The notes under the pieces are model-generated. The model was given only the letters and a program-made list of their open reading frames with translations, was not told the DNA's origin and did not search any database. The position numbers and the translations under genes are program-made. From contig NZ_CP034448.1 of assembly GCF_003952465.1 (NCBI RefSeq), forward strand, positions 1,860,001 to 1,924,000: a DNA stretch of 64,000 nucleotides. The letters run 5' to 3'. Shown one piece after another: positions 48,763 through 58,042 of the stretch (position 1 is its first letter; each line of letters starts with the position of its first letter). The stretch is from Mesorhizobium sp. M1B.F.Ca.ET.045.04.1.1 (lineage in GTDB: Bacteria > Pseudomonadota > Alphaproteobacteria > Rhizobiales > Rhizobiaceae).

Positions 48763-49655
48763 GCCCGCGTGAGGATGGATTGCCGGAAGACCCGCAGGAT
48801 ATGAAGCTGATGATCCACGCTCTTGTCGATGGCGAGCTCGACGCCGCGGCCGCCCTTGCCGTCGAGCGACGCATCGCCGCCGATCCGGAGCTCGCCGCCG
48901 AACATGCGCGCATCCTCGCGCTGCGCAGCGCCATCGCGAACGTGCCGCGCCCCGAGATCAGCAGCGATTTCCTGGCGCGCATCGCGGCGATCGGCGAGGT
49001 GAAAGCTTCCGGCGAAGCCGAGGCCGCGCAGGCCGAAGCTGTGAAGGCAGACCCGGAGCTGCAACAGGGCAAGGTCATCGAGATGCGGCCGCGCGCTACG
49101 GCACGGTGGTTCAACTCCTTCGACTGGCGCCAGATGGCGGCCTCGATCGTGCTCACGGCGTTTCTCGCCAGCGGCGCGACGCAGTGGCTGATGGTGGAGA
49201 ATGCGCCCGACAGTTTCGCGGTCGCCGCCGCCAACGGCCATCGCCGCAGCCTGCTTGCGGCAACGCCGGTCGATATCGTCTCGTCCGACCGACATACGGT
49301 GAAGCCGTGGCTCGACGGCCGGATCGGCGTGTCGCCGCCGGCGCCCGACATGGCCAAGGACGGCTATGCGCTGCTTGGCGGACGGGTCGAGGTGATCGGC
49401 GACAAGCCGGTGCCGGCCCTGGTCTACCGCCATCACGAGCACCTGATCACGCTGGTGGCGGCGCCGCGGCAGTACGAGGCCCCTGTGCCGGTGGCGGACG
49501 ATCTCTCGGCCGGCGGCTTCCTCTTGGTCCACTGGACCGACGACGCCTTTTCCTACTGGGCGATCTCGGATGCCGAACGCCCCGCGCTGGACGATTTCGT
49601 CGCCCGCTTCCGGGAGGCGATCATCGCCAATCCAACTGCGGGCAGTCCGGGCTGA
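48759..49655 (+). CDS. Transmembrane anti-sigma factor
   Basis: A 298-residue protein whose ATG overlaps the sigma-factor stop. The N-terminal cytosolic part has LMIHALVDGELDAAAALAVE, the helix pattern of anti-sigma domains, though without an obvious HxxxCxxC zinc motif. A single membrane segment (about residues 128-146, WRQMAASIVLTAFLASGATQ) leads to a periplasmic domain of about 150 residues with many prolines and an HHEHLITLV strand. Context and topology support the call; the periplasmic signal is unknown. Confidence 0.87.
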   Translation: MSPREDGLPEDPQDMKLMIHALVDGELDAAAALAVERRIAADPELAAEHARILALRSAIANVPRPEISSDFLARIAAIGEVKASGEAEAAQAEAVKADPELQQGKVIEMRPRATARWFNSFDWRQMAASIVLTAFLASGATQWLMVENAPDSFAVAAANGHRRSLLAATPVDIVSSDRHTVKPWLDGRIGVSPPAPDMAKDGYALLGGRVEVIGDKPVPALVYRHHEHLITLVAAPRQYEAPVPVADDLSAGGFLLVHWTDDAFSYWAISDAERPALDDFVARFREAIIANPTAGSPG

Positions 49656-49680
49656 ATATTTGCCGCCGGGCCCATGGAAG

Positions 49681-49959
49681 TCACCGGCAGGTGTAGCCGC
49701 CGTCGATGGGCGGGTGGATGCCGGTGATCATCGAGGCGGCGTCGCTGAGCAGGAACACGATCGGGCCGGCGACCTCATCCTCGGTCGCCCAGCGGCCGAG
49801 CGGCATCTGCTTCAGAAACGGCTCGGCGACATGCGGCTGGCTCCAATGGCCGGACGAAATCGGCGTCATGACCACGGTCGGGTTCACGCTGTTGACGCGA
49901 ATGTTGTGTTTGCCGAGCTCGAGCGCCGAGCAGCGTGTGATGTTTTCGAGCGCCGCCTT
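49681..49959 (-). pseudogene. C-terminal remnant of an SDR oxidoreductase, split by the IS element
   Basis: About 93 codons of the C-terminal half of a short-chain dehydrogenase remain: KAALENITRCSALELGKHNI, VNPTVVMTP, GPIVFLLSDAASMITG and DGGYTCR. The VNPTVVMTP segment resembles the L-xylulose reductase group. The reading frame stops at the IS630 element. On the far side of the element, bases 51020 to 51009 read TAC-GGC-TCG-TCT on the minus strand; joined to the AAG codon at 49959-49957 they restore Y-G-S-S-K, the catalytic YxxxK. Nothing further upstream matches an SDR, so the 5' half is missing. Confidence 0.8.
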
Positions 49960-49960
49960 A

Positions 49961-51007
49961 GGGTCTTTCACGTTTTGACGGAAGCATAGCCTGCGTTTGC
50001 GAAGTAGTTCTTGCATTCGGCTGGCTCGATGGTTTCGACGAGGTGACCGATGTGACGCCAGGTGTCCTCGACGGTACGTTTCTGAGCTTGGCGCATCCAG
50101 TGTTTGATTTTGGCGAAGGCCTGCTCGATCGGATTAAGGTCCGGCGAGTAGGGCGGCAGGTACCAAAGCCTGGCACCGGCGGCCTTGATCATCTGCCTGA
50201 TGGCGGCCGACTTATGACTTCCCAGATTGTCCATGATGACGATATCGCCGGGCTTAAGGACAGTGATGAGCTGTTGCTCGACATAAGCGCGGAAGCATTG
50301 ACCGTTGATCGGTCCGTCGAAGACACAAGGTGCCGCGAGCCGATCCCAGCGCAGCGCGCCCAGGAAAGTCAGCGTGCGCCAGTGGCCGTGCGGAGCCAAG
50401 CCGCGCAGCCGCTTGCCCTTCGGCCCCCAGCCACGCAGCGGAGCCATGTTGGTCTTGATCCAGGTCTCATCGATGAAAACCAGGCACTGCGGATCGAGGC
50501 CGGCCTGCCAGGATCGCCATCGCTGGCGCCTTCGGGCAATATCGGCGCGTGCCTGCTCAAGAGCGAACAACGTTTTTTTTGAAGCTCAGCCCCTCGCGGC
50601 GCAGGAATTGCCACACTGCGTTATGCGAAACCTTGACCCCGCGAGCGGCCAACTCATCCTTCAGACCGTGCAGCGTCAGATGCGGCGTCTCACGTAGACG
50701 GGCCGCGATGAAGGCACGGTGCGGCTCCAACACCCTCTTGCGATGTCCACCCATCTTGCCTGGAGCAACCGAACCAGTCGCCCGATGGCGCTGCAACAAC
50801 TTCACCGCCGCCGAAACCGAAATGCCAAACCGTTTGGCCGCCGACCGGCGGCTCTCACCACGCAAAACCGCCGCCACAACCCGTTCGCGAAGATCATTCG
50901 AAAGAGGTCGCGTCATCAGATGCTGGCCTCCATTCCAGCCAGCATCTTGAATCACAAATCCGACAAATCGGGAATCCCTTCCGATTCCGTCAAATCTTGA
51001 ACCGCTC
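49961..51007 (-). mobile_element. IS630-family insertion sequence, complete, 1047 bp
   Basis: The ends can be read. TA dinucleotides lie at 49959-49960 and 51008-51009, as expected for TA target duplication in the IS630/Tc1 group. The left terminus (GGGTCTTTCACGTTTTGACG from 49961) and the complement of the right terminus (GAGCGGTTCAAGATTTGACG) match at 17 of 23 positions over the first 23 bases, with the inner TTTGACGGAA identical. The element carries a two-frame transposase on the minus strand. It inserted into an already rearranged stretch between an SDR and a DeoR gene fragment. Confidence 0.88.
49968..50916 (-). CDS. IS630-family transposase, two overlapping frames
   Basis: The first frame (ATG at 50916, to about 50557) encodes the helix-turn-helix part: LSNDLRERVVAAVLRGES, AAKRFGISVSAAVKLLQRH, then a second DNA-binding half. 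It ends shortly after FKKNVVRS. The second frame (50570-49968) encodes the DDE domain with FIDETWIKT (Asp), IVIMDNLGSHKS (Asp) and PDLNPIEQAFAKIK (Glu). The two overlap at a run of eight A residues in the mRNA (T8 at 50573-50580), and the second is in the +1 frame relative to the first. Slippage on this run probably gives the full transposase; a disabling indel is the alternative. The stop codon lies inside the left terminal repeat. Confidence 0.85.
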
Positions 51008-51009
51008 TA

Positions 51010-51278
51010 GACGAGCCGTAGGAAATGTGGCCCTCGCCATGATCGGCTCCGCCCGCAAGACGATCCTGCTCGTCGACAGCTCGAAATTCACCGCACCCGG
51101 TTCCTGCACGCTGTCGGATATTTCCGAGATCGACGAGGTGATTACCGACGAGGGCGTGTCGCAGGACGCGCTGTCATCCCTCTACGCCGCCGAGCGAAAG
51201 GTGACGGTGGTTCGCGTCGGGGCCTGGCCGGGATGCGTCGCCCCGGGCTATAGCCGTGACTCGGCGAGGCGGGCTTGA
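51010..51278 (+). pseudogene. C-terminal fragment of a DeoR-family regulator
   Basis: The frame reads NVALAMIGSARKTILLVDSS, KFTAPGSCTLSDISEIDEVI and TDEGVS, the effector-binding DeoR C-terminal domain (conserved LLVDSSKF and EIDEVITD). The helix-turn-helix half is absent, and the last 20 residues (after KVTVV) look unrelated, suggesting a second junction near 51215. With the SDR fragment across the IS element it is probably debris of a sugar or polyol operon. Confidence 0.7.
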
Positions 51279-51626
51279 ACTCGTTGCAAAAATGCTGCGG
51301 TGGCACTGGTGTATAAACTACTAAAGCTCTGCATGCATCGGCACTGATAGTAGAAAATCTTTCGGTGTAAGGGCTCATCTGGTTTGAGAACTGAATATAC
51401 TTTCCAGTTCGGATAACCTATCTGAGCATGGATGATTCTGTATGCTTCCGTCGAGCATAACCTCAATCCGCGCAAATGTATAAGTGTCTTCGTTTAAGGT
51501 ACAATGCGGAGAGATATGCTGTCATGCCCCGGCCGCTGGGGTTCAACTGAAAAGTAGCGTAAATTAGCTTATGGCCTGTTCAAATTTGTGCTACTCATGT
51601 CGGGGGTTGTGGCCAGGGAGGGGGGT
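51279..51626. other. AT-richer intergenic region at the left edge of the STAND gene
   Basis: These 348 bp have clearly lower GC than the flanking housekeeping DNA and no ORF I can support. They must contain the promoter of the gene at 51627; no -35/-10 pair is convincing by eye. Confidence 0.4.
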
Positions 51627-52073
51627 ATGGATCCGGTTTCAGCGATATTGGGCGCGCTCGTCGCGGGAGCGACGGCTGCAGGATCGGAGGTCGGCTCTTT
51701 AGCGTTAAAGGAAGCCTATCAGGGCTTAAGGACAATATTGGTCGATACCTACAAGGTGGTGTCAACAGCCCTACTGGAGAAGAAACCGTCCAATACAGCC
51801 TACCAAGGTGCCGTGCAGGACGAATTGAGGGCAATCCCGGAAATTGCCAATGACCCTGACCTTCTTAAGCAGGCCAAGGCCGTGCAAGAAGCGGTTAGCG
51901 CAATGCCGGCGGATCAGGTAACTGCGCTTGGCATCGACATTGAGACACTGACGTCTCAAGGCAATTTGATTGCCGAACGCATTCATGGCGGTATTCGCGG
52001 TAAGAGCTGGAGCGCTGCCGGCGACATTCGTTTCTCGGATGTTAACGGAGGTAAGTCCTCGGGAAACCGATAG
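51627..52073 (+). CDS. N-terminal module of a two-frame STAND protein (zero-frame product)
   Basis: A 148-codon ORF from the ATG at 51627, preceded by GGGAGGGGGG; an ATG at 51588 is less likely. The protein begins MDPVSAILGALVAGATAAGS, a glycine-spaced hydrophobic helix, then helical segments (LALKEAYQGLRTILVDTYKV; PDLLKQAKAVQEAV), and ends GDIRFSDVNGG. Short proteins with this kind of start and a terminal glycine/aspartate strand occur fused to STAND-type NTPases; the domain has no function I can name. The ORF stops at TAG 52071 directly after the slippery heptamer GGGAAAC. The predicted default product is this short protein, and a -1 shift fuses it to the large ORF downstream. Confidence 0.75.
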   Translation: MDPVSAILGALVAGATAAGSEVGSLALKEAYQGLRTILVDTYKVVSTALLEKKPSNTAYQGAVQDELRAIPEIANDPDLLKQAKAVQEAVSAMPADQVTALGIDIETLTSQGNLIAERIHGGIRGKSWSAAGDIRFSDVNGGKSSGNR

Positions 52074-52106
52074 GGGGGGCGGATTCGGCCCCATCCTCCC
52101 CCTCTA
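52061..52106 (+). promoter_or_regulatory. Predicted programmed -1 ribosomal frameshift signal
   Basis: In the zero frame the codons read TCG GGA AAC CGA TAG. GGGAAAC (52061-52067) is therefore in the X-XXY-YYZ phase required for -1 slippage. Three bases later a stem begins: TAGGGGGGG (52071-52079) pairs with CCCCCTCTA (52098-52106), and after a single C/T mismatch GGAT (52081-52084) pairs with ATCC (52093-52096), with an 8-nt loop. After the shift the codons are CCG ATA GGG and the frame stays open to 56707. The lambda tail gene pair G/T uses the related GGGAAAG. Confidence 0.72.
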
Positions 52107-55100
52107 AGCTCGGGGTTGAACTCGGCAGCGCGACCGCAGGCAGAGACTTCTTCCTGAATATCGCGCTGCAAGGCTCGTCGGCCCCGCCGTCGGGTCCCGT
52201 AGGGCTTTCTCCGCACAGCAACGGCGATGCTATCCGAAAGGCGCGTGAAGTCCTTGGACTGACAGCGACTGAGATCGTCGCGAGAGCTGGCGGTGGATTC
52301 GATGAGAACTGGCTGCTCGCTGCGGAGGAAGGTGCGCGGGTTGATGCCCGGCAACTGGCTCTTCTTGCGCGCCTGATTGAAGTTGAACCCTCCGACATAA
52401 CGCTCAAAGATGATGAGCGTCCGCCGTATCGAGGGCTTCTTTCGTTTGAGCCGGAAGATGCACTATTGTTCGGCGGGCGCGAACTGGCGACCCGTGATAT
52501 TCTGGGATTGCTGGACCGCCATACGGTTGTGGCGGTGATCGGCGCATCAGGATCCGGCAAGTCGTCTGTAGTGAAGGCGGGCGTGGTTCCGGAACTCCGC
52601 AAGCGCATCGCGCCGGGCTGGCGCGGCCTTGTCATGCGGCCAGGAACGGATCCGCTTCTTGCTCTGGCACGTGCACTTGGCAGCGAGGTCGATCTCGATG
52701 CTGATGAGGATACTCGCATAGTCAGAGCGCGGGAACGTGCTGAAAGCCTCCTCGCCGGTAAAGCGAAGCTCTCAGACTATATCGCGCGTATAGCCGACCT
52801 GCGGGCGCATGGAGCGGTTGCTCCGCGGCTGCTGCTGTTCATTGATCAATGGGAAGAACTCTACACCCAGACTCACAGTGCAGCAGCGAGAAATGCCTTC
52901 CTGGAACATTTGGTGGAAACCTTCCGGTCAGGGCCCCATCGGCTGATCTTTACAATGCGCGCAGACTTCACCGGCCATCTCTTGGAGAGCGACCGCCGCT
53001 TTGCCGATTGTGCAAGCTCGGGTACCATGCTGTTGGCCCGCATGACGCGCGACGAGTTGTCGAGGGCGGTTCGAAAGCCGGCCGAGGCTGTTGGTTTCAC
53101 ACTTGAAGAGAAGCTGGTTGAAGCCATTCTCGACGATGCCGGCGAGGAGCCTGGCGTCCTGGCGCTTGTCGAATTCAGCCTAACCGAACTATGGAAGGAT
53201 CGCGATCAGCAGGCCAAATCCTTGACACTGGCCGCATACGCGACTCTCGGAGGCCTGAAGGGCGCAATAGACCGGCATGCAAATGAGGTCTTTGCCAAAC
53301 TTCAACCGGAACAGCAAAACGCTGCACGCAGAGCTTTGACGCGTCTGGTTCACGTTTCAACGCTGGAGTCCTACACACGTCTGCGCCGTCCCTTGGCCGA
53401 GTTTGATAAGCCGGGTCTGGATGTGATCCAGGCATTGGCTCAAGAGGCGAACCGGCTAGTGGTTATTTCACGCGATGAAAGCCGCCAGCAGGACGTGGCC
53501 GAAGTCGCCCATGAGGCCCTAATCCGCGAATGGGGAAAACTGCACGATTGGGTGGCTGCGGATCCCGCCTTCTTGCAGTGGCAAGAAAGCGTAGAACGTA
53601 GAATGAGGCGCTACGACGAGAAGGGGCAGCGCGACGAAGACTTGTTGCGCGGGACCGATCTCGAGGAGGCCCAGAGCTGGCGTATCACCCGCACCAACGA
53701 CATTCCCGACAAGATCAGCGCCTTTGTCGCAGCGAGCCAAGTTCAAAAAGAAAAGCAAGCCGCGGACGCGGCAAAGGCGACAGAAGACAAAGCTGCGGCT
53801 GCACAACGGTTTAAGAAATGGAGTCTGGCTTTTGCCGCTGTGCTTGGGGCATTCGCAATTGCTCTCGGGATTAGTGCCTTTTCCCTGAATTCGGCTCGGA
53901 CCGATGCCGACTCGAAGGCAAAGGCTGCCCTCGTCAACCAAACGCGTGCCTTCTCGGCGCTTGCACAGCAAGCGCTCTCAGTTGGGCGATCCACGGAGGC
54001 TCTGAAACTCTCGCTGGGGGCTTGGCCTAAGGATGATACCGATAATAAACCGCAGCTTGAGAAAACGATAAGAAGTATGTCTATAGCTAACAGCTATCAG
54101 AAAGTTCCATCTCGTATAATAAAGCTGGGAATTTCCGATGCTGTTCAAATTTCTCGAACCGAAATACTAATAGCGTCTGGGGAAAAAGTATCACTCATGA
54201 ACACAAATACGGATAAATACATTTGGACTGCGGATTTTACTCGGCAGAAGGGTCCGTTTTCCAATCCGCTTTCCTCCGTCGTCATGTCCCTGCTGCCAAA
54301 CGGCGATATTGCGCACTCAATAGCAGGCGATATATCGATCCTGGATAGGGGAACCGGTAAAATCAAATTTCAAAATTTCTCAAGGAACGGTTCGACCGTT
54401 GGGCTTACCCCCGACGGAGATATCTACCGCGTTGGCCTCAATGAGTATGAGCTACTAGATGGCAAAGGTATCGCCCGGATCGGGCTGGTATCTGTCATTG
54501 ATGGCAAAATAGAGAAGGTGCTTCCAATATCAGGACGCAGAGTTGCTTTATTCATAGTCAGCAACTCTTCATCAGAGCCCGATTTTATTGCGGTATTTGA
54601 TGCAATTTCTGGACACAGAATTGGAAATACCTTTTCATCGGAATACTACGGAGATTTGACCCCTTCCGTTCAAATATCGGATAGCGCAATAGCTTTTTAC
54701 TACGACAATCAAATCAGATTTTGGGATTTCACCACTGCCCGGCTGCTCGGCGATCCTGGTGAGATGGCACACGACCGCGATGTCCGAGGTGTGATCAATT
54801 TGTCCAATGGCAACGTCGTGTCTTGGGGCGATGACGGTATCATCAAAGTTTGGGATGGCATCACCGGGAGGCATCTAGGAACAGATATGTCTCAGGATGG
54901 AGGTGTGATTGGGGTAATGCCTCTACCCAGTGGCGGGCTGCTCTCATGGTCGAAACTCGGAACGATGCGGATTTGGGATCTGCGAAAGAGAGCTCAGGTT
55001 GGAAAGGAGATGCATCATCCCGGGCTTATAATCTCCGCATCTGTGACTGCTGATGACCGGATCTTGTCTTGGTCGGCGGACGGCTCCGTTCGACTGTGGG

Positions 55101-56707
55101 ACTTGCAAACCGGTCTAGAGACAAGTCCTCCCATGTATCACGACGGCGCTGTCATCGGGGCCGGGGTTTTCTCCGGCGATCGCGTGATATCCTGGTCTCA
55201 GGATTCAACAATTAGATTCTGGAAGGTCGATGAGGCTCGCGTCCGGCAACTCGAGTCTCAGCATGTCAGGCCAATTAAAGAGATATTGCGGGTTGGTGAA
55301 GGCGCGGTGCTTTCGTGGAGTTCGGACGGTATAATGTGTGTCTGGAACAGCAACGATGGAAATCTAGAAAGGTGTATAAGGTCCGGCGGGGTTTTAAAGT
55401 CCGTAAAGGTGGTCGGCAGTGATTATGTACTGACTTTAGCAGCCAGAAGCGCTGCTGTCTGGAGAATATCGGATGGGATCAAGATCTGGGAATGGATGCC
55501 GGAACGCCCTATTAAAGATGAGATCCTGATGGATGAAAATCGCCTTGCTTTGATATCATCGAATCAAATTAGTATCTTGGATGTCAAAACCGGTAAGCCT
55601 TTGATTGAAAAGGAATTCCGCCCCATGAGGACCGGTGGGCAGGCGGATTCGGATGTCTCATGGGCTGCCAAGGCAATATTATTGCAGAGCGGCTTGATTT
55701 CCATATGGTCAAGGGATTTCGTCGCCATATTTGATGACAGCAGCGGACAACTCCATCCACTACTGGACGTGAAAGATCCTAGTGAAGCAAATGAAATCTT
55801 GAATGTGGTGGAGATCGGCGACGGTCGGCTCTTAGTTGCGGCATCCAACCTTCTTGCCGCCTATGATTGCTCCAATGGAAAAATAATATGGGAGAAAGAC
55901 CCAGGCAACGATGACGATATTGTTTATTCTGGAATTTTTTCCACGGCGATTGCAAAGTTGTCGACGGACCTATTTATGATCTCTGACGGCGGCGATGTTC
56001 AGATTCGAGAGGTGGGTAGTGGCGGTTTAAGGAAGAAGTTTACAAAGGGACTTTCTTTTGGGGACAACTATATGCTCCTCCCGGAATCTGGGGGGCTTTT
56101 AATCTGGGGTGACGATGGCGTTCTTGAGAAATATGATTACCTAAAGGACAGCGTGTCGTGGGTATCAAATCTGGAATCAGAGATTCAAAACGTATTTTTG
56201 CTGGATGAAATCTTATTGGTAAATTTTTCTGACGATACCTGGAATTTCGTTTCCCTCAAAACCGGAAGGCAAATTGGAATTAGGAATCTAGGTTCTCCAG
56301 TAGCTGCGCACGCTCTTTCGAATGACCGGATCGTAACGGCGATCGAAGATAGATTTCAGATTTGGGATGTTTCCACGGCCTCCCAAGTGGGTGGGAACAT
56401 ATTCACCCCAAAGAGATTGAACGAGAAAAGGATTCTATTTTTAAATGACGGCGCCATATTCTTCGGTCCGTATACATTTAACTATGTTAAATTTAAGTAT
56501 GACTCCGGAAATTTGTTTCAAATATCGTGCAAAATGATAGATCGTAACAATAGTGAGGATGTGAAGTACCTGTATTCTGTTGGCGTCGATCTCGCTATAT
56601 GTGAAAACGCGGGTCAAGCACCCTTGCCGGACTGGCGCGTCATTGAGAGAGACCCCATCGAATCTATCTCTGATCAGATGGTATCTGGGCGATTTCGGCA
56701 CGGGTGA
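52067..56707 (+). CDS. STAND NTPase-WD40 protein, expressed by -1 frameshift from 51627
   Basis: The -1 frame encodes 1546 residues after the shift, giving a 1693-residue fusion. In fusion numbering: an XRE-like helix-turn-helix segment at about 201-255 (AIRKAREVLGLTATEIVARA), PYRGLLSFEPEDALLFGGRE at about 267-286, Walker A GASGSGKSS at 306-314, Walker B LLLFIDQWEE at 402-411, a winged/helical arm (DELSRAVRKPAEAVGF), a membrane segment KWSLAFAAVLGAFAIALGIS at about 731-750, then a beta-propeller region. Tryptophans of the WD motifs fall at codons 54722, 54851, 54974, 55097, 55220 and 55343, the last five exactly 41 codons apart. This is the nSTAND1-WD40 architecture of bacterial signalling or conflict ATPases. 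The frame lacks ATG, GTG or TTG before 52466, which is already inside the conserved STAND N-terminus. GC falls markedly in the 3' half, which suggests transfer. Confidence 0.85.
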   Translation, partial: PIGGADSAPSSPSKLGVELGSATAGRDFFLNIALQGSSAPPSGPVGLSPHSNGDAIRKAREVLGLTATEIVARAGGGFDENWLLAAEEGARVDARQLALLARLIEVEPSDITLKDDERPPYRGLLSFEPEDALLFGGRELATRDILGLLDRHTVVAVIGASGSGKSSVVKAGVVPELRKRIAPGWRGLVMRPGTDPLLALARALGSEVDLDADEDTRIVRARERAESLLAGKAKLSDYIARIADLRAHGAVAPRLLLFIDQWEELYTQTHSAAARNAFLEHLVETFRSGPHRLIFTMRADFTGHLLESDRRFADCASSGTMLLARMTRDELSRAVRKPAEAVGFTLEEKLVEAILDDAGEEPGVLALVEFSLTELWKDRDQQAKSLTLAAYATLGGLKGAIDRHANEVFAKLQPEQQNAARRALTRLVHVSTLESYTRLRRPLAEFDKPGLDVIQALAQEANRLVVISRDESRQQDVAEVAHEALIREWGKLHDWVAADPAFLQWQESVERRMRRYDEKGQRDEDLLRGTDLEEAQSWRITRTNDIPDKISAFVAASQVQKEKQAADAAKATEDKAAAAQRFKKWSLAFAAVLGAFAIALGISAFSLNSARTDADSKAKAALVNQTRAFSALAQQALSVGRSTEALKLSLGAWPKDDTDNKPQLEKTIRSMSIANSYQKVPSRIIKLGISDAVQISRTEILIASGEKVSLMNTNTDKYIWTADFTRQKGPFSNPLSSVVMSLLPNGDIAHSIAGDISILDRGTGKIKFQNFSRNGSTVGLTPDGDIYRVGLNEYELLDGKGIARIGLVSVIDGKIEKVLPISGRRVALFIVSNSSSEPDFIAVFDAISGHRIGNTFSSEYYGDLTPSVQISDSAIAFYYDNQIRFWDFTTARLLGDPGEMAHDRDVRGVINLSNGNVVSWGDDGIIKVWDGITGRHLGTDMSQDGGVIGVMPLPSGGLLSWSKLGTMRIWDLRKRAQVGKEMHHPGLIISASVTADDRILSWSADGSVRLWDLQTGLETSPPMYHDGAVIGAGVFSGDRVISWSQDSTIRFWKVDEARVRQLESQHVRPIKEILRVGEGAVLSWSSDGIMCVWNSNDGNLERCIRSGGVLKSVKVVGSDYVLTLAARSAAVWRISDGIKIWEWMPERPIKDEILMDENRLALISSNQISILDVKTGKPLIEKEFRPMRTGGQADSDVSWAAKAILLQSGLISIWSRDFVAIFDDSSGQLHPLLDVKDPSEANEILNVVEIGDGRLLVAASNLLAAYDCSNGKIIWEKDPGNDDDIVYSGIFSTAIAKLSTDLFMISDGGDVQIREVGSGGLRKKFTKGLSFGDNYMLLPESGGLLIWGDDGVLEKYDYLKDSVSWVSNLESEIQNVFLLDEILLVNFSDDTWNFVSLKTGRQIGIRNLGSPVAAHALSNDRIVTAIEDRFQIWDVSTASQVGGNIFTPKRLNEKRILFLNDGAIFFGPYTFNYVKFKYDSGNLFQISCKMIDRNNSEDVKYLYSVGVDLAICENAGQAPLPDWRVIERDPIESISDQMVSGRFRHG

Positions 56708-56813
56708 TGAGACTGCTGCATGTGATGCGCAAACCTATCGACAAGGACAGTTGAATATCCGAGAAGCTGGCTTCGAACGCCTCCGGCGCCCAAAACTGAC
56801 AGCCTGTCCCGAT

Positions 56814-56892
56814 TGGAGAGCCCGACAGGAATCGAACGTGTGGCCTACAGTTTAGAACCCGCGCCTCTATCCTGCGAGCTACGAGACCACCC
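56814..56892 (-). pseudogene. Degenerate tRNA-like sequence (possible tRNA-Arg(UCU) remnant)
   Basis: On the minus strand the segment has a D-arm-like TAGCTCGCAGGATAGAG, an anticodon-region GGTTCTAAAC, a T-arm-like CGTTCGATTCCTG and a terminal TCCA, spanning about 77-79 nt as a tRNA would. The acceptor and anticodon stems do not pair well, so it is probably not functional. It lies just beyond the end of the STAND gene and may mark an integration boundary. Confidence 0.45.
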
Positions 56893-56938
56893 GGCTAGAT
56901 CCGTCGCCCCATCAGCAGCCTTCGCCTGCTGTGAACAC

Positions 56939-58042
56939 CTATTCCACCATGAACCGCGAGCTAAACGGAAGGCTTGCGGCTCCCACCGCCTTGGGCGAGC
57001 GCTCGATGTTGCCGGCGATGGCGGTGATGCCGGGCATGGCCTGCTCCAACTCCCGGCAGATCGCCTTGCACACCGCCTGGGGCGCGTAGGAGGACAGGAC
57101 AACCGAAGCTAGCGGAACGAATTGCTTCAGCGCCCCTATCGACGACTTCATCTGCTCCACCAGCTCGCGTTGCCACGCGGTCTCGGCCTCGCCAAACGAC
57201 GGCCAGTCGGCCCCCCGTTCCCAGAGCTCGGAGGGCGAGCTGCCGCTCCTCCTGATCTCCTCCTCCAGGCGCAGGATGCCGACGTCGAAGCTGACCGCGG
57301 CGGCGGTGTTGTAGATCTGATGGTTGAGGATCAGTCGGCTGTGCAGCCGCGCGCCGAGATAGAAGAACAGATAGTCCGAAAGGTGCTTCGCCACGCCGAA
57401 CATACTCTCGCCGCCTGCGGCGGCGGTGATGTCGTTCTGGACGTAGACCGGGTAGCCGATTTCCCTTTCGACTTCCTCCTGCAAAGCGTCGAACCGTTCA
57501 CGGGCCGCCATGGGGGTCAGCTCGAGTTCCGCCTGGTCGCCGGGCAAGGCGAGGCCGATGCCGGCGATGCGCGAGTGGAGGTGCTGCGGCAGATCGGCAA
57601 TGGCCTTGGCGATAGCGCTCATGAATTGCGGATGGTTGGTGTCCTGCCTGGCCGCCGAGAACGGCAGCACCGTGCGCGAGCGGATCGAGCCGACGAAGTC
57701 GACAAGCACGACCTCGACCTGCCGGTGGCCGACGCTGATGCCGACGGAATACGCACCTTCCGGGTTGAGCGAGATCGGCACCGTCGGCGGCCCGACGCGG
57801 CCGCGTTGGGCCTCGCCCTTGGCGATCAACCCTTCCTGCTCGAGCGAGCGGACGATGACGGACACCGTCTGCGCCGACAGGCCGGTCCGCTCGCCGATCT
57901 CGAGACGGGTGATGCCTTTGCTCTGGAGCAGCAGTGACAGCACGAGGCGCTCGTTGTAGCCGCGCACGCTGACGGCGTTGAGGCCGCTGGCGCGGTCCGC
58001 GATGCGGAGGGGATTGGGCGGCGCAAAGCGCATGTCAGGCAT
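56939..58042 (-). CDS. ROK-family regulator lacking the zinc motif
   Basis: A 367-residue regulator. I take the ATG at 58042 with GAGAGGG upstream; an ATG at 58033 is next. The winged helix reads ITRLEIGERTGLSAQTVSVI with VRSLEQEGLIAKG. The sugar-kinase-like domain is recognisable (GAYSVGISVGHRQVEVVLVD, YPVYVQNDITAAAGGESMFG) but the CxCGxxGCxE zinc motif and the usual GGxGEfGH segment are missing, replaced by YLGARLHSRLILNHQIYN. Sugar sensing may thus differ from canonical ROK repressors. It follows the SGNH hydrolase on the same strand (41-bp gap) and is divergent from the ribose-type ABC operon it probably controls. Confidence 0.87.
   Translation of the reverse strand: MPDMRFAPPNPLRIADRASGLNAVSVRGYNERLVLSLLLQSKGITRLEIGERTGLSAQTVSVIVRSLEQEGLIAKGEAQRGRVGPPTVPISLNPEGAYSVGISVGHRQVEVVLVDFVGSIRSRTVLPFSAARQDTNHPQFMSAIAKAIADLPQHLHSRIAGIGLALPGDQAELELTPMAARERFDALQEEVEREIGYPVYVQNDITAAAGGESMFGVAKHLSDYLFFYLGARLHSRLILNHQIYNTAAAVSFDVGILRLEEEIRRSGSSPSELWERGADWPSFGEAETAWQRELVEQMKSSIGALKQFVPLASVVLSSYAPQAVCKAICRELEQAMPGITAIAGNIERSPKAVGAASLPFSSRFMVE

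Follow-up and report, generated by a model that had tools for sequence, protein, structure and literature searches.

A putative −1 ribosomal frameshift signal between a small helical protein and a STAND-WD40 protein in Mesorhizobium

The question raised by a locus of Mesorhizobium sp. M1B.F.Ca.ET.045.04.1.1 is how a frame open for 1550 codons is translated when its first ATG, GTG or TTG lies within the domain that it encodes. The locus was found in a window of 64,000 nucleotides (nt; contig NZ_CP034448.1, positions 1,860,001 to 1,924,000 of the forward strand), to which the coordinates below refer. Its first open reading frame (ORF), ORF1, was found on the plus strand at 51627-52073 and contained 148 codons followed by the stop codon TAG at 52071-52073, and it was preceded by a Shine-Dalgarno (SD) sequence (AGGGAGGGGGG, 51615-51625, plus strand) with a predicted 16S 3′-end duplex of −11.7 kcal/mol. 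The second, ORF2, is the open stretch of the −1 frame with its stop codon (52055-56707, plus strand), would be read from 52067 after a slip, and encodes a STAND ATPase with a WD40-type propeller. Judged on the sequences compared here, one mRNA probably yields a free helical effector and, from a minority of ribosomes, a fusion of this effector to the sensor ATPase by a −1 slip.

The 3′ end of ORF1 was found to read TCG GGA AAC CGA TAG and to contain the candidate slippery heptamer G-GGA-AAC (52061-52067, plus strand) in the X-XXY-YYZ phase. The −1 frame was closed by TAA at 52052-52054 and was open from 52055 through 56707, and no ATG, GTG or TTG was present before the TTG at 52466 (residue 138, within the nSTAND1 domain). 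ORF1 and ORF2 overlapped by 19 nt (52055-52073) with GGGAAAC inside, and since the overlap is bounded by stop codons, a productive −1 slip is possible only there. The short ORF, the phase of the heptamer, the bounds of the −1 frame and its lack of an early start codon had been described in a first-pass annotation of the window and were seen again in the sequence, and the length of the trans-frame product was recomputed as the same 1693 residues. The observation of ORF1, heptamer and open −1 frame is confirmed, and the reading of the junction as a putative frameshift site is supported.

The ORF2 stretch at 52184-52465 (plus strand), upstream of its first ATG, GTG or TTG, was found to be coding by homology to the N-terminus of a Streptomyces nSTAND1 protein. 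The alignment with Streptomyces anulatus WP_338060446.1 (L044) started at ORF2 residue 44 (52184) and extended over 522 columns at 31% (BLASTP, E 3e-49). Because the homology reaches back to 52184, translation must enter ORF2 upstream of any ATG, GTG or TTG; among the six alphaproteobacterial loci described below, homology 5′ of every such codon was demonstrated for the window only. The Streptomyces protein differs from ORF2 in that its annotated coding sequence has a start of its own, some ten residues upstream of the aligned region, and in that it has no ORF1 head. The helix-turn-helix-like segment that the first-pass annotation had placed upstream of 52466 had no Pfam match of its own; what stood of that claim is the Streptomyces alignment from 52184. 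Codon usage of the same genome favoured frame 0 upstream and the −1 frame downstream of the junction, with the likelihood optimum at the overlap start, a placement helped by the two bounding stop codons.

The chance background was taken from ORFs of at least 100 residues in the window and a further 400 kb of its genome. An in-phase XXXYYYZ heptamer 0-6 nt before the stop was found in 12 of the 1447 ORFs with ORF1 included (11/1446 as background), and a heptamer together with a −1 frame open over 200 or more codons in two of the 1447, one being ORF1; in the other, a start codon preceded the stop in that −1 frame.

Homologues of ORF1 were examined at 22 loci, window included, of which six were alphaproteobacterial, eight actinobacterial, four cyanobacterial and four from other Pseudomonadota. 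Left out of the counts were the weak loci L033-L043, L059 and L092, loci L058, L087 and L099 (the same locus as L061), plasmid records H47, H50, H52 and H70 (the same matches on sister plasmids) and L093-L097. The in-phase heptamer 0-6 nt before the ORF1 stop was found in 6/6 alphaproteobacterial loci (5/5 besides the window) and in 0/16 other loci, and a large −1 ORF followed it in four of the five other alphaproteobacterial loci. The ORF1 of Rhizobium sp. L43 (L060) was 53% identical and contained GGGAAAC-AAG-TAG, followed by an 8-bp perfect stem; its −1 ORF runs on for 489 codons after the stop and encodes hydrophobic segments. Kaistia soli (L061) was found to contain GGGAAAG-TAG and a −1 ORF of 306 codons past the stop, also with hydrophobic segments. 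Rhizobium ruizarguesonis (L046) contained AAAAAAA-TAA, an additional GGGAAAC 15 nt before the ORF1 stop, an 8-bp stem and a −1 ORF for an AAA_16/NPHP3-type ATPase extending 1383 codons past the stop. Sinorhizobium chiapasense (L055) contained AAAAAAAAAC, and its −1 ORF, which encodes a hydrophobic segment, extended 417 codons beyond the stop. The plasmid of Rhizobium jaguaris (L063, 6001-9609) was found to contain GGGAAAC-TAG, in phase and directly before the ORF1 stop. A homologue of the Sinorhizobium ORF2 (37.5% identity) was found with its own ATG on a Bradyrhizobium japonicum plasmid (L098, 3004-4779), where no ORF1-type gene was present directly upstream.

All 15 pairs of the six alphaproteobacterial ORF1s matched at E 0.001 or better (BLASTP), and the best match between any two of the five −1-linked ORF2s was E 0.018 over 45 residues. 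The comparison showed conservation of the ORF1 head and of the candidate shift site and exchange of the protein behind them. The same head and shift site before swapped downstream proteins make a chance indel or an error in the sequencing very unlikely. The tripeptide [STA]G[NK] near the ORF1 end was spelled xxG-GGA-AAx in 5/6 alphaproteobacterial loci, as against 5/157 such tripeptides in the genome sample. The first-pass annotation had proposed that homologues be compared, and had named close single-frame homologues, with one base more or fewer here, among the findings that would speak against frameshifting. The split and the heptamer were found to persist in four alphaproteobacterial relatives with a different downstream protein, the heptamer alone persisted in the fifth, and ORF1 stood in one frame with a large protein in 0/22 loci.

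An internal SD-like GGAGG (52047-52051, plus strand), a candidate 5′ stimulator absent from the first-pass annotation, was found 9 nt upstream of the heptamer; its predicted anti-SD pairing of −11.5 kcal/mol is about that of the SD sequence of ORF1 itself. SD-like elements that stimulate −1 shifts are described at a spacing of 9-14 nt, G_GGA_AAG is described as highly shift-prone in Escherichia coli, and G_GGA_AAC is listed among the shift sites of halovirus g-t genes (PMC5009743). Folding predicted a stem-loop of 9+4 bp with a 1x1 mismatch (52071-52106, plus strand), a possible 3′ stimulator, at a spacing of 3 nt from the heptamer, which is below the usual 5-8 (PMC4066793). No Rfam match was found at gathering thresholds in 49500-57500. 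Transcriptional slippage was considered for the window and is not plausible on GGGAAAC; it is possible in S. chiapasense (nine-A run) and R. ruizarguesonis (seven-A run).

The ORF1 product was modelled by AlphaFold2 from a three-row alignment with helices at residues 3-119, a tail at residues 121-148 with a predicted local distance difference test (pLDDT) score below 50, and a mean pLDDT of 73.2. With moderate confidence, ORF1 is predicted to be a helical bundle with a disordered C-terminal tail, and this model, together with the homologues in 21 other loci, makes it an all-helical, Bell-like effector candidate. No family was found for it in Pfam, NCBIfam or PHROGs, and Foldseek returned no match to the fold at E 0.001. 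The best VIA-align fold match was talin R4 (Z 5.5, root-mean-square deviation 3.8, 98 aligned), no clear relative, with Z 5.5 lying within the range stated by the tool as common for helical bundles.

The ORF2 product was found to contain an nSTAND1 NTPase domain at 52424-53635 (plus strand; PF20703, residues 124-527, E 7.6e-103), with a score of 345.5 bits against a gathering score of 27.1 and profile position 1 at residue 124. It was followed by a hydrophobic segment at 53816-53872 (plus strand; Kyte-Doolittle 1.82 over 19 residues), possibly a membrane anchor between NTPase and propeller, and by a WD40-type beta-propeller region at 54530-55390 (plus strand), a putative sensor matched by several propeller families, each under its own curated cut-off (best E 2.2e-17). 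Searches with the NTPase part returned other nSTAND1 architectures with TIR-like, cyclase-like and DUF4062-like N-termini (by eye) and no ORF1 head, in a listing that is incomplete because minus-strand loci were left unturned. The search of viral contigs with ORF2 returned no match.

Bell domains are described as small helical, presumably membrane-targeting effectors that carry a BASS motif at the C-terminus; an adjacent or overlapping gene codes for an NLR whose N-terminus matches this motif (PMC7889193, PMC8086366). The window resembles such Bell/BASS-NLR pairs in that the gene for a small protein, predicted to be helical and with an only moderately hydrophobic N-terminal helix, lies immediately upstream of the gene for an NLR-like ATPase and overlaps it; the nSTAND1-WD40 ORF overlaps the effector gene by the 19 nt given above, in keeping with the adjacent NLR-type gene by which such pairs are recognised. 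Several ORF1 homologues further resemble them in carrying one motif both at the end of the effector and at the start of the NLR. The window differs in that its halves are joined by a putative −1 frameshift signal and in that no paired effector/NLR motif was detected in it (shuffle p 0.71), so that it was not filed as a BASS pair. In its working it appears comparable to a Bell-NLR pair, and its origin appears to lie in a family of this kind. Neither PMC7889193 nor PMC8086366 uses the word 'frameshift' in its main text, and a literature search, with most subscription journals outside it, found no paper linking frameshifting in this sense to BASS/NLR or antiphage STAND genes.

The −1 frameshifting of the dnaX and phage G/T type is alike in the in-phase heptamer, the 5′ SD-like element, the 3′ stem and a short and a long product sharing an N-terminus (PMC5009743). 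It differs in what is made: here a putative effector as the short product, extended by a STAND sensor in the long one, with an extension that varies between relatives. In antiviral STAND proteins of the Avs and bNACHT type, which are encoded in a single frame, the NTPase is preceded by an N-terminal effector and followed by a C-terminal sensor; the effectors of Avs are enzymatic. Compared with them, the effector head of the window is non-enzymatic as far as seen and would be joined by recoding. Phage lambda G/T uses GGGAAAG.

One mRNA would accordingly give two proteins in the explanation that we favour. Most ribosomes would end at the TAG at 52071 and release the 148-residue Bell-like helical effector; a minority, assisted by the internal GGAGG and perhaps also the stem, would slip −1 on G-GGA-AAC and make the 1693-residue protein with the same effector N-terminal to the nSTAND1-WD40 sensor ATPase. 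The cell would then hold free effector and fewer sensors, each with a covalent effector copy. On triggering of propeller and ATPase, for example by a phage product, the fused copies would cluster and recruit free effector, and the clustered effector would halt growth or harm the membrane of its own cell. We infer the occurrence and rate of the shift, the clustering of the effector and the role in defence, which is probably defence against phages.

Several findings weigh against this explanation. The −1 frame of the R. jaguaris locus was found to be shut after 10 codons, and its NACHT-type ORF lay in frame 0 behind TAG and TGA. A possible ATG or GTG was present 81-150 nt past the stop in all four productive homologues, among them the annotated GTG of R. 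ruizarguesonis at +93 nt, a GTG of K. soli at +120 nt and an ATG of Rhizobium sp. L43 at +150 nt with a weak predicted SD. The ORF2 of S. chiapasense contained an ATG at the position matching the start of its stand-alone Bradyrhizobium relative, so that a shift is unnecessary there for making that protein. The SD-like element at stimulator spacing was found in 3/6 alphaproteobacterial loci as against 67/403 background ORFs. The first-pass annotation had pointed to a 13-bp stem-loop 3 nt past the heptamer; the stem is present, and against dinucleotide shuffles it proved unexceptional (z −0.87), being typical of such G/C-rich sequence. Folding z of the 50 nt past the heptamer was −0.59 in the window, −1.82 in Rhizobium sp. 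L43, −0.71 in K. soli, −1.37 in R. ruizarguesonis, +0.55 in S. chiapasense and +0.82 in R. jaguaris, and the 3′ stem as a stimulator is weakly supported. The hydrophobic helix of ORF1 is moderate (hydrophobicity 1.50), and PADLOC-DB 2.0.0 gave no match to ORF1 and no convincing catalogued defence system. On the other side, and in favour of the explanation, no ORF1 stop was TGA in the 14 alphaproteobacterial and actinobacterial loci, by which an xTGA overlap start is absent, and 123 of 197 long ORFs of the window's genome ended in TGA, a comparison that ignores relatedness and differences between genomes and is weaker for it.

A rival explanation is a start of ORF2 by re-initiation or at an unusual codon, either the ATA at 52070 overlapping the stop or CTG/ATC at 52154-52166, with GGAGG serving re-initiation. 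GGAGG precedes the stop as in translationally coupled genes (PMC5009743), a homologous pair of other Pseudomonadota (L091) was found to contain a true ATGA overlap in the same relative frame, and S. chiapasense has the ATG just mentioned. We nevertheless hold such a start to be improbable: the window offers no ATG, GTG or TTG before 52466, for its non-NTG candidates before 52184 only weak SD pairing is predicted (−1.1 to −4.3 kcal/mol), the stop-overlapping codon is ATA in the window, R. ruizarguesonis and S. chiapasense but GTA in Rhizobium sp. L43 and K. soli, and the recurrence of the in-phase heptamer is left unexplained. An artefact or decay, in which one base too few or too many divides a gene now or formerly single-frame, would agree with there being one assembly examined, with the G run directly after the ORF1 TAG and with the R. 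jaguaris junction lacking read-through; it has very little probability, since a G run after TAG cannot take the stop out of frame 0, and ORF2 is open for 1550 codons, the arrangement recurs in independent records and single-frame forms are missing from the loci compared. The frameshift may also be real and its role other than defence, with ORF1 as a localisation or oligomerisation head of unrelated large proteins and the short form a by-product or regulator. This we regard as unlikely, though deserving serious attention: the ORF2s of Rhizobium sp. L43, K. soli and S. chiapasense have hydrophobic segments and no Pfam match, and therefore no recognisable ATPase, and both the modest helix of ORF1 and the PADLOC result fit it. 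It is opposed by the several homologues that directly precede STAND-, NACHT- or TPR-type genes, on plasmids and in a predicted provirus, a setting described for Bell-NLR pairs (PMC7889193).

The paired motif (shuffle p ≤0.05) was found in 10/19 loci tested, L065 and L066 (near-copies of L064) and L049 (no same-strand downstream gene) being left out. It was not detected in the window, Rhizobium sp. L43, K. soli, S. chiapasense and 5/6 actinobacterial loci tested, and in R. jaguaris the C-terminal motif of ORF1 recurred (score 84, p 0) in the region 5′ of the annotated start of the NACHT-type ORF. The motif was present in 2/11 loci at which a −1 shift could join effector and sensor, as against 8/8 loci not so linked; this split (0.0006 by a one-sided Fisher test, 0.0035 once four related actinobacterial loci are merged) is post hoc and ignores relatedness. 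It is conceivable, and offered tentatively, that effector and sensor, once linked by amyloid pairing, are linked by recoding instead. In that case the number of sensor nuclei per free-effector pool would follow from the frameshift ratio, and different sensors would be exchanged at the shift site as at a modular socket. If the effector-sensor fusion by frameshifting is true, programmed frameshifting sets an immune-type sensor:effector stoichiometry from one gene, different sensors are exchanged behind one effector head at the shift site, and the number of sensors needed to trigger the effector pool is directly testable via the shift rate. The annotated plasmid records examined list the two halves as separate genes, and such systems would therefore be overlooked.

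The downstream ORF of the actinobacterial loci was found in the −1 frame and overlapping ORF1 in 8/8. At five of them (Gordonia, Dietzia, Prescottella and two Rhodococcus) it could be aligned straight from the ORF1 stop, and its first NTG came only 17 to 51 codons later. The first 30 columns of these five contained 54 synonymous and 91 non-synonymous pairwise codon differences (codon positions 64/58/95; L056, L065 and L050 left out of the comparison), a third-position excess that is only moderate. A canonical heptamer near the ORF1 end was found in 0/8 actinobacterial loci, and CCC-CAC-CC was common to 7/8 (plasmids L047, L048, L052, L056, L064, L065 and L066). This may be a shift site of a non-canonical kind; that a single tRNA slips on the CCY codon after CCC-CAC-CC is only a guess. 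The cyanobacterial loci contained a downstream gene with its own ATG in 3/4, the fourth (L049) having none on its strand, and the four loci of other Pseudomonadota contained a downstream gene with its own ATG, present in L091 as the ATGA overlap. Three of the latter (L089, L090 and L091) were found to contain ORF1-type genes beside separately started NTPase-type genes, and the effector and NLR ends of L089 and L090 shared an S-(N/T)IIG-Q / STVIGTQ-like motif, which we take to resemble RHIM.

ORF1 was found to be rare among the genomes covered. Among 394 genomes of the family, and likewise among 41 of the genus, it was present in its own genome only; it was found in 3/297 order genomes (own genome and one weak match counted), in 6/269 phylum genomes (own genome and one weak partial match counted), and in 1/14 genomes of the Kaistia genus. 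The ORF1 query found no relative in genome-contig, viral-contig or phage collections, none beyond its own genome in 297 family genomes and none in plasmids at E 0.01. The first relative was reached through a single plasmid match at E 0.06, and plasmid searches and collection scans added more. The ORF1 of Rhizobium sp. L43 had no match in plasmids or viral contigs, and its ORF2 none in plasmids. A class search (289 genomes, E up to 0.1) returned eleven weak places in ten other genomes, all of which were rejected as noise, seven of the eleven loci having been listed.

ORF2 matched only mad3 (E 0.0042, residues 157-175) and capH (E 0.079) in PADLOC-DB 2.0.0. Two observations on location speak for the favoured explanation. 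Plasmids were typed as conjugative for 8/15 plasmid loci fetched. The Kaistia soli locus (L061, 4001-5364; the same as L099) was found to share 8315 identical bases with part of an IMG/VR contig; its cassette lay in a predicted provirus, where genes for an HNH endonuclease and the small subunit of a terminase followed directly downstream, which is likely an accessory-gene site. The cassette of the window was flanked on one side by an IS630-type transposase with a short-chain dehydrogenase fragment beyond and on the other by a ROK-type regulator. The transposase (49968-50955, minus strand) was found in two frames, its first ORF ending in an eight-A run in CAAAAAAAACG before the frame change, and by its sequence it appears to be a further frameshifting gene, of a kind already known.

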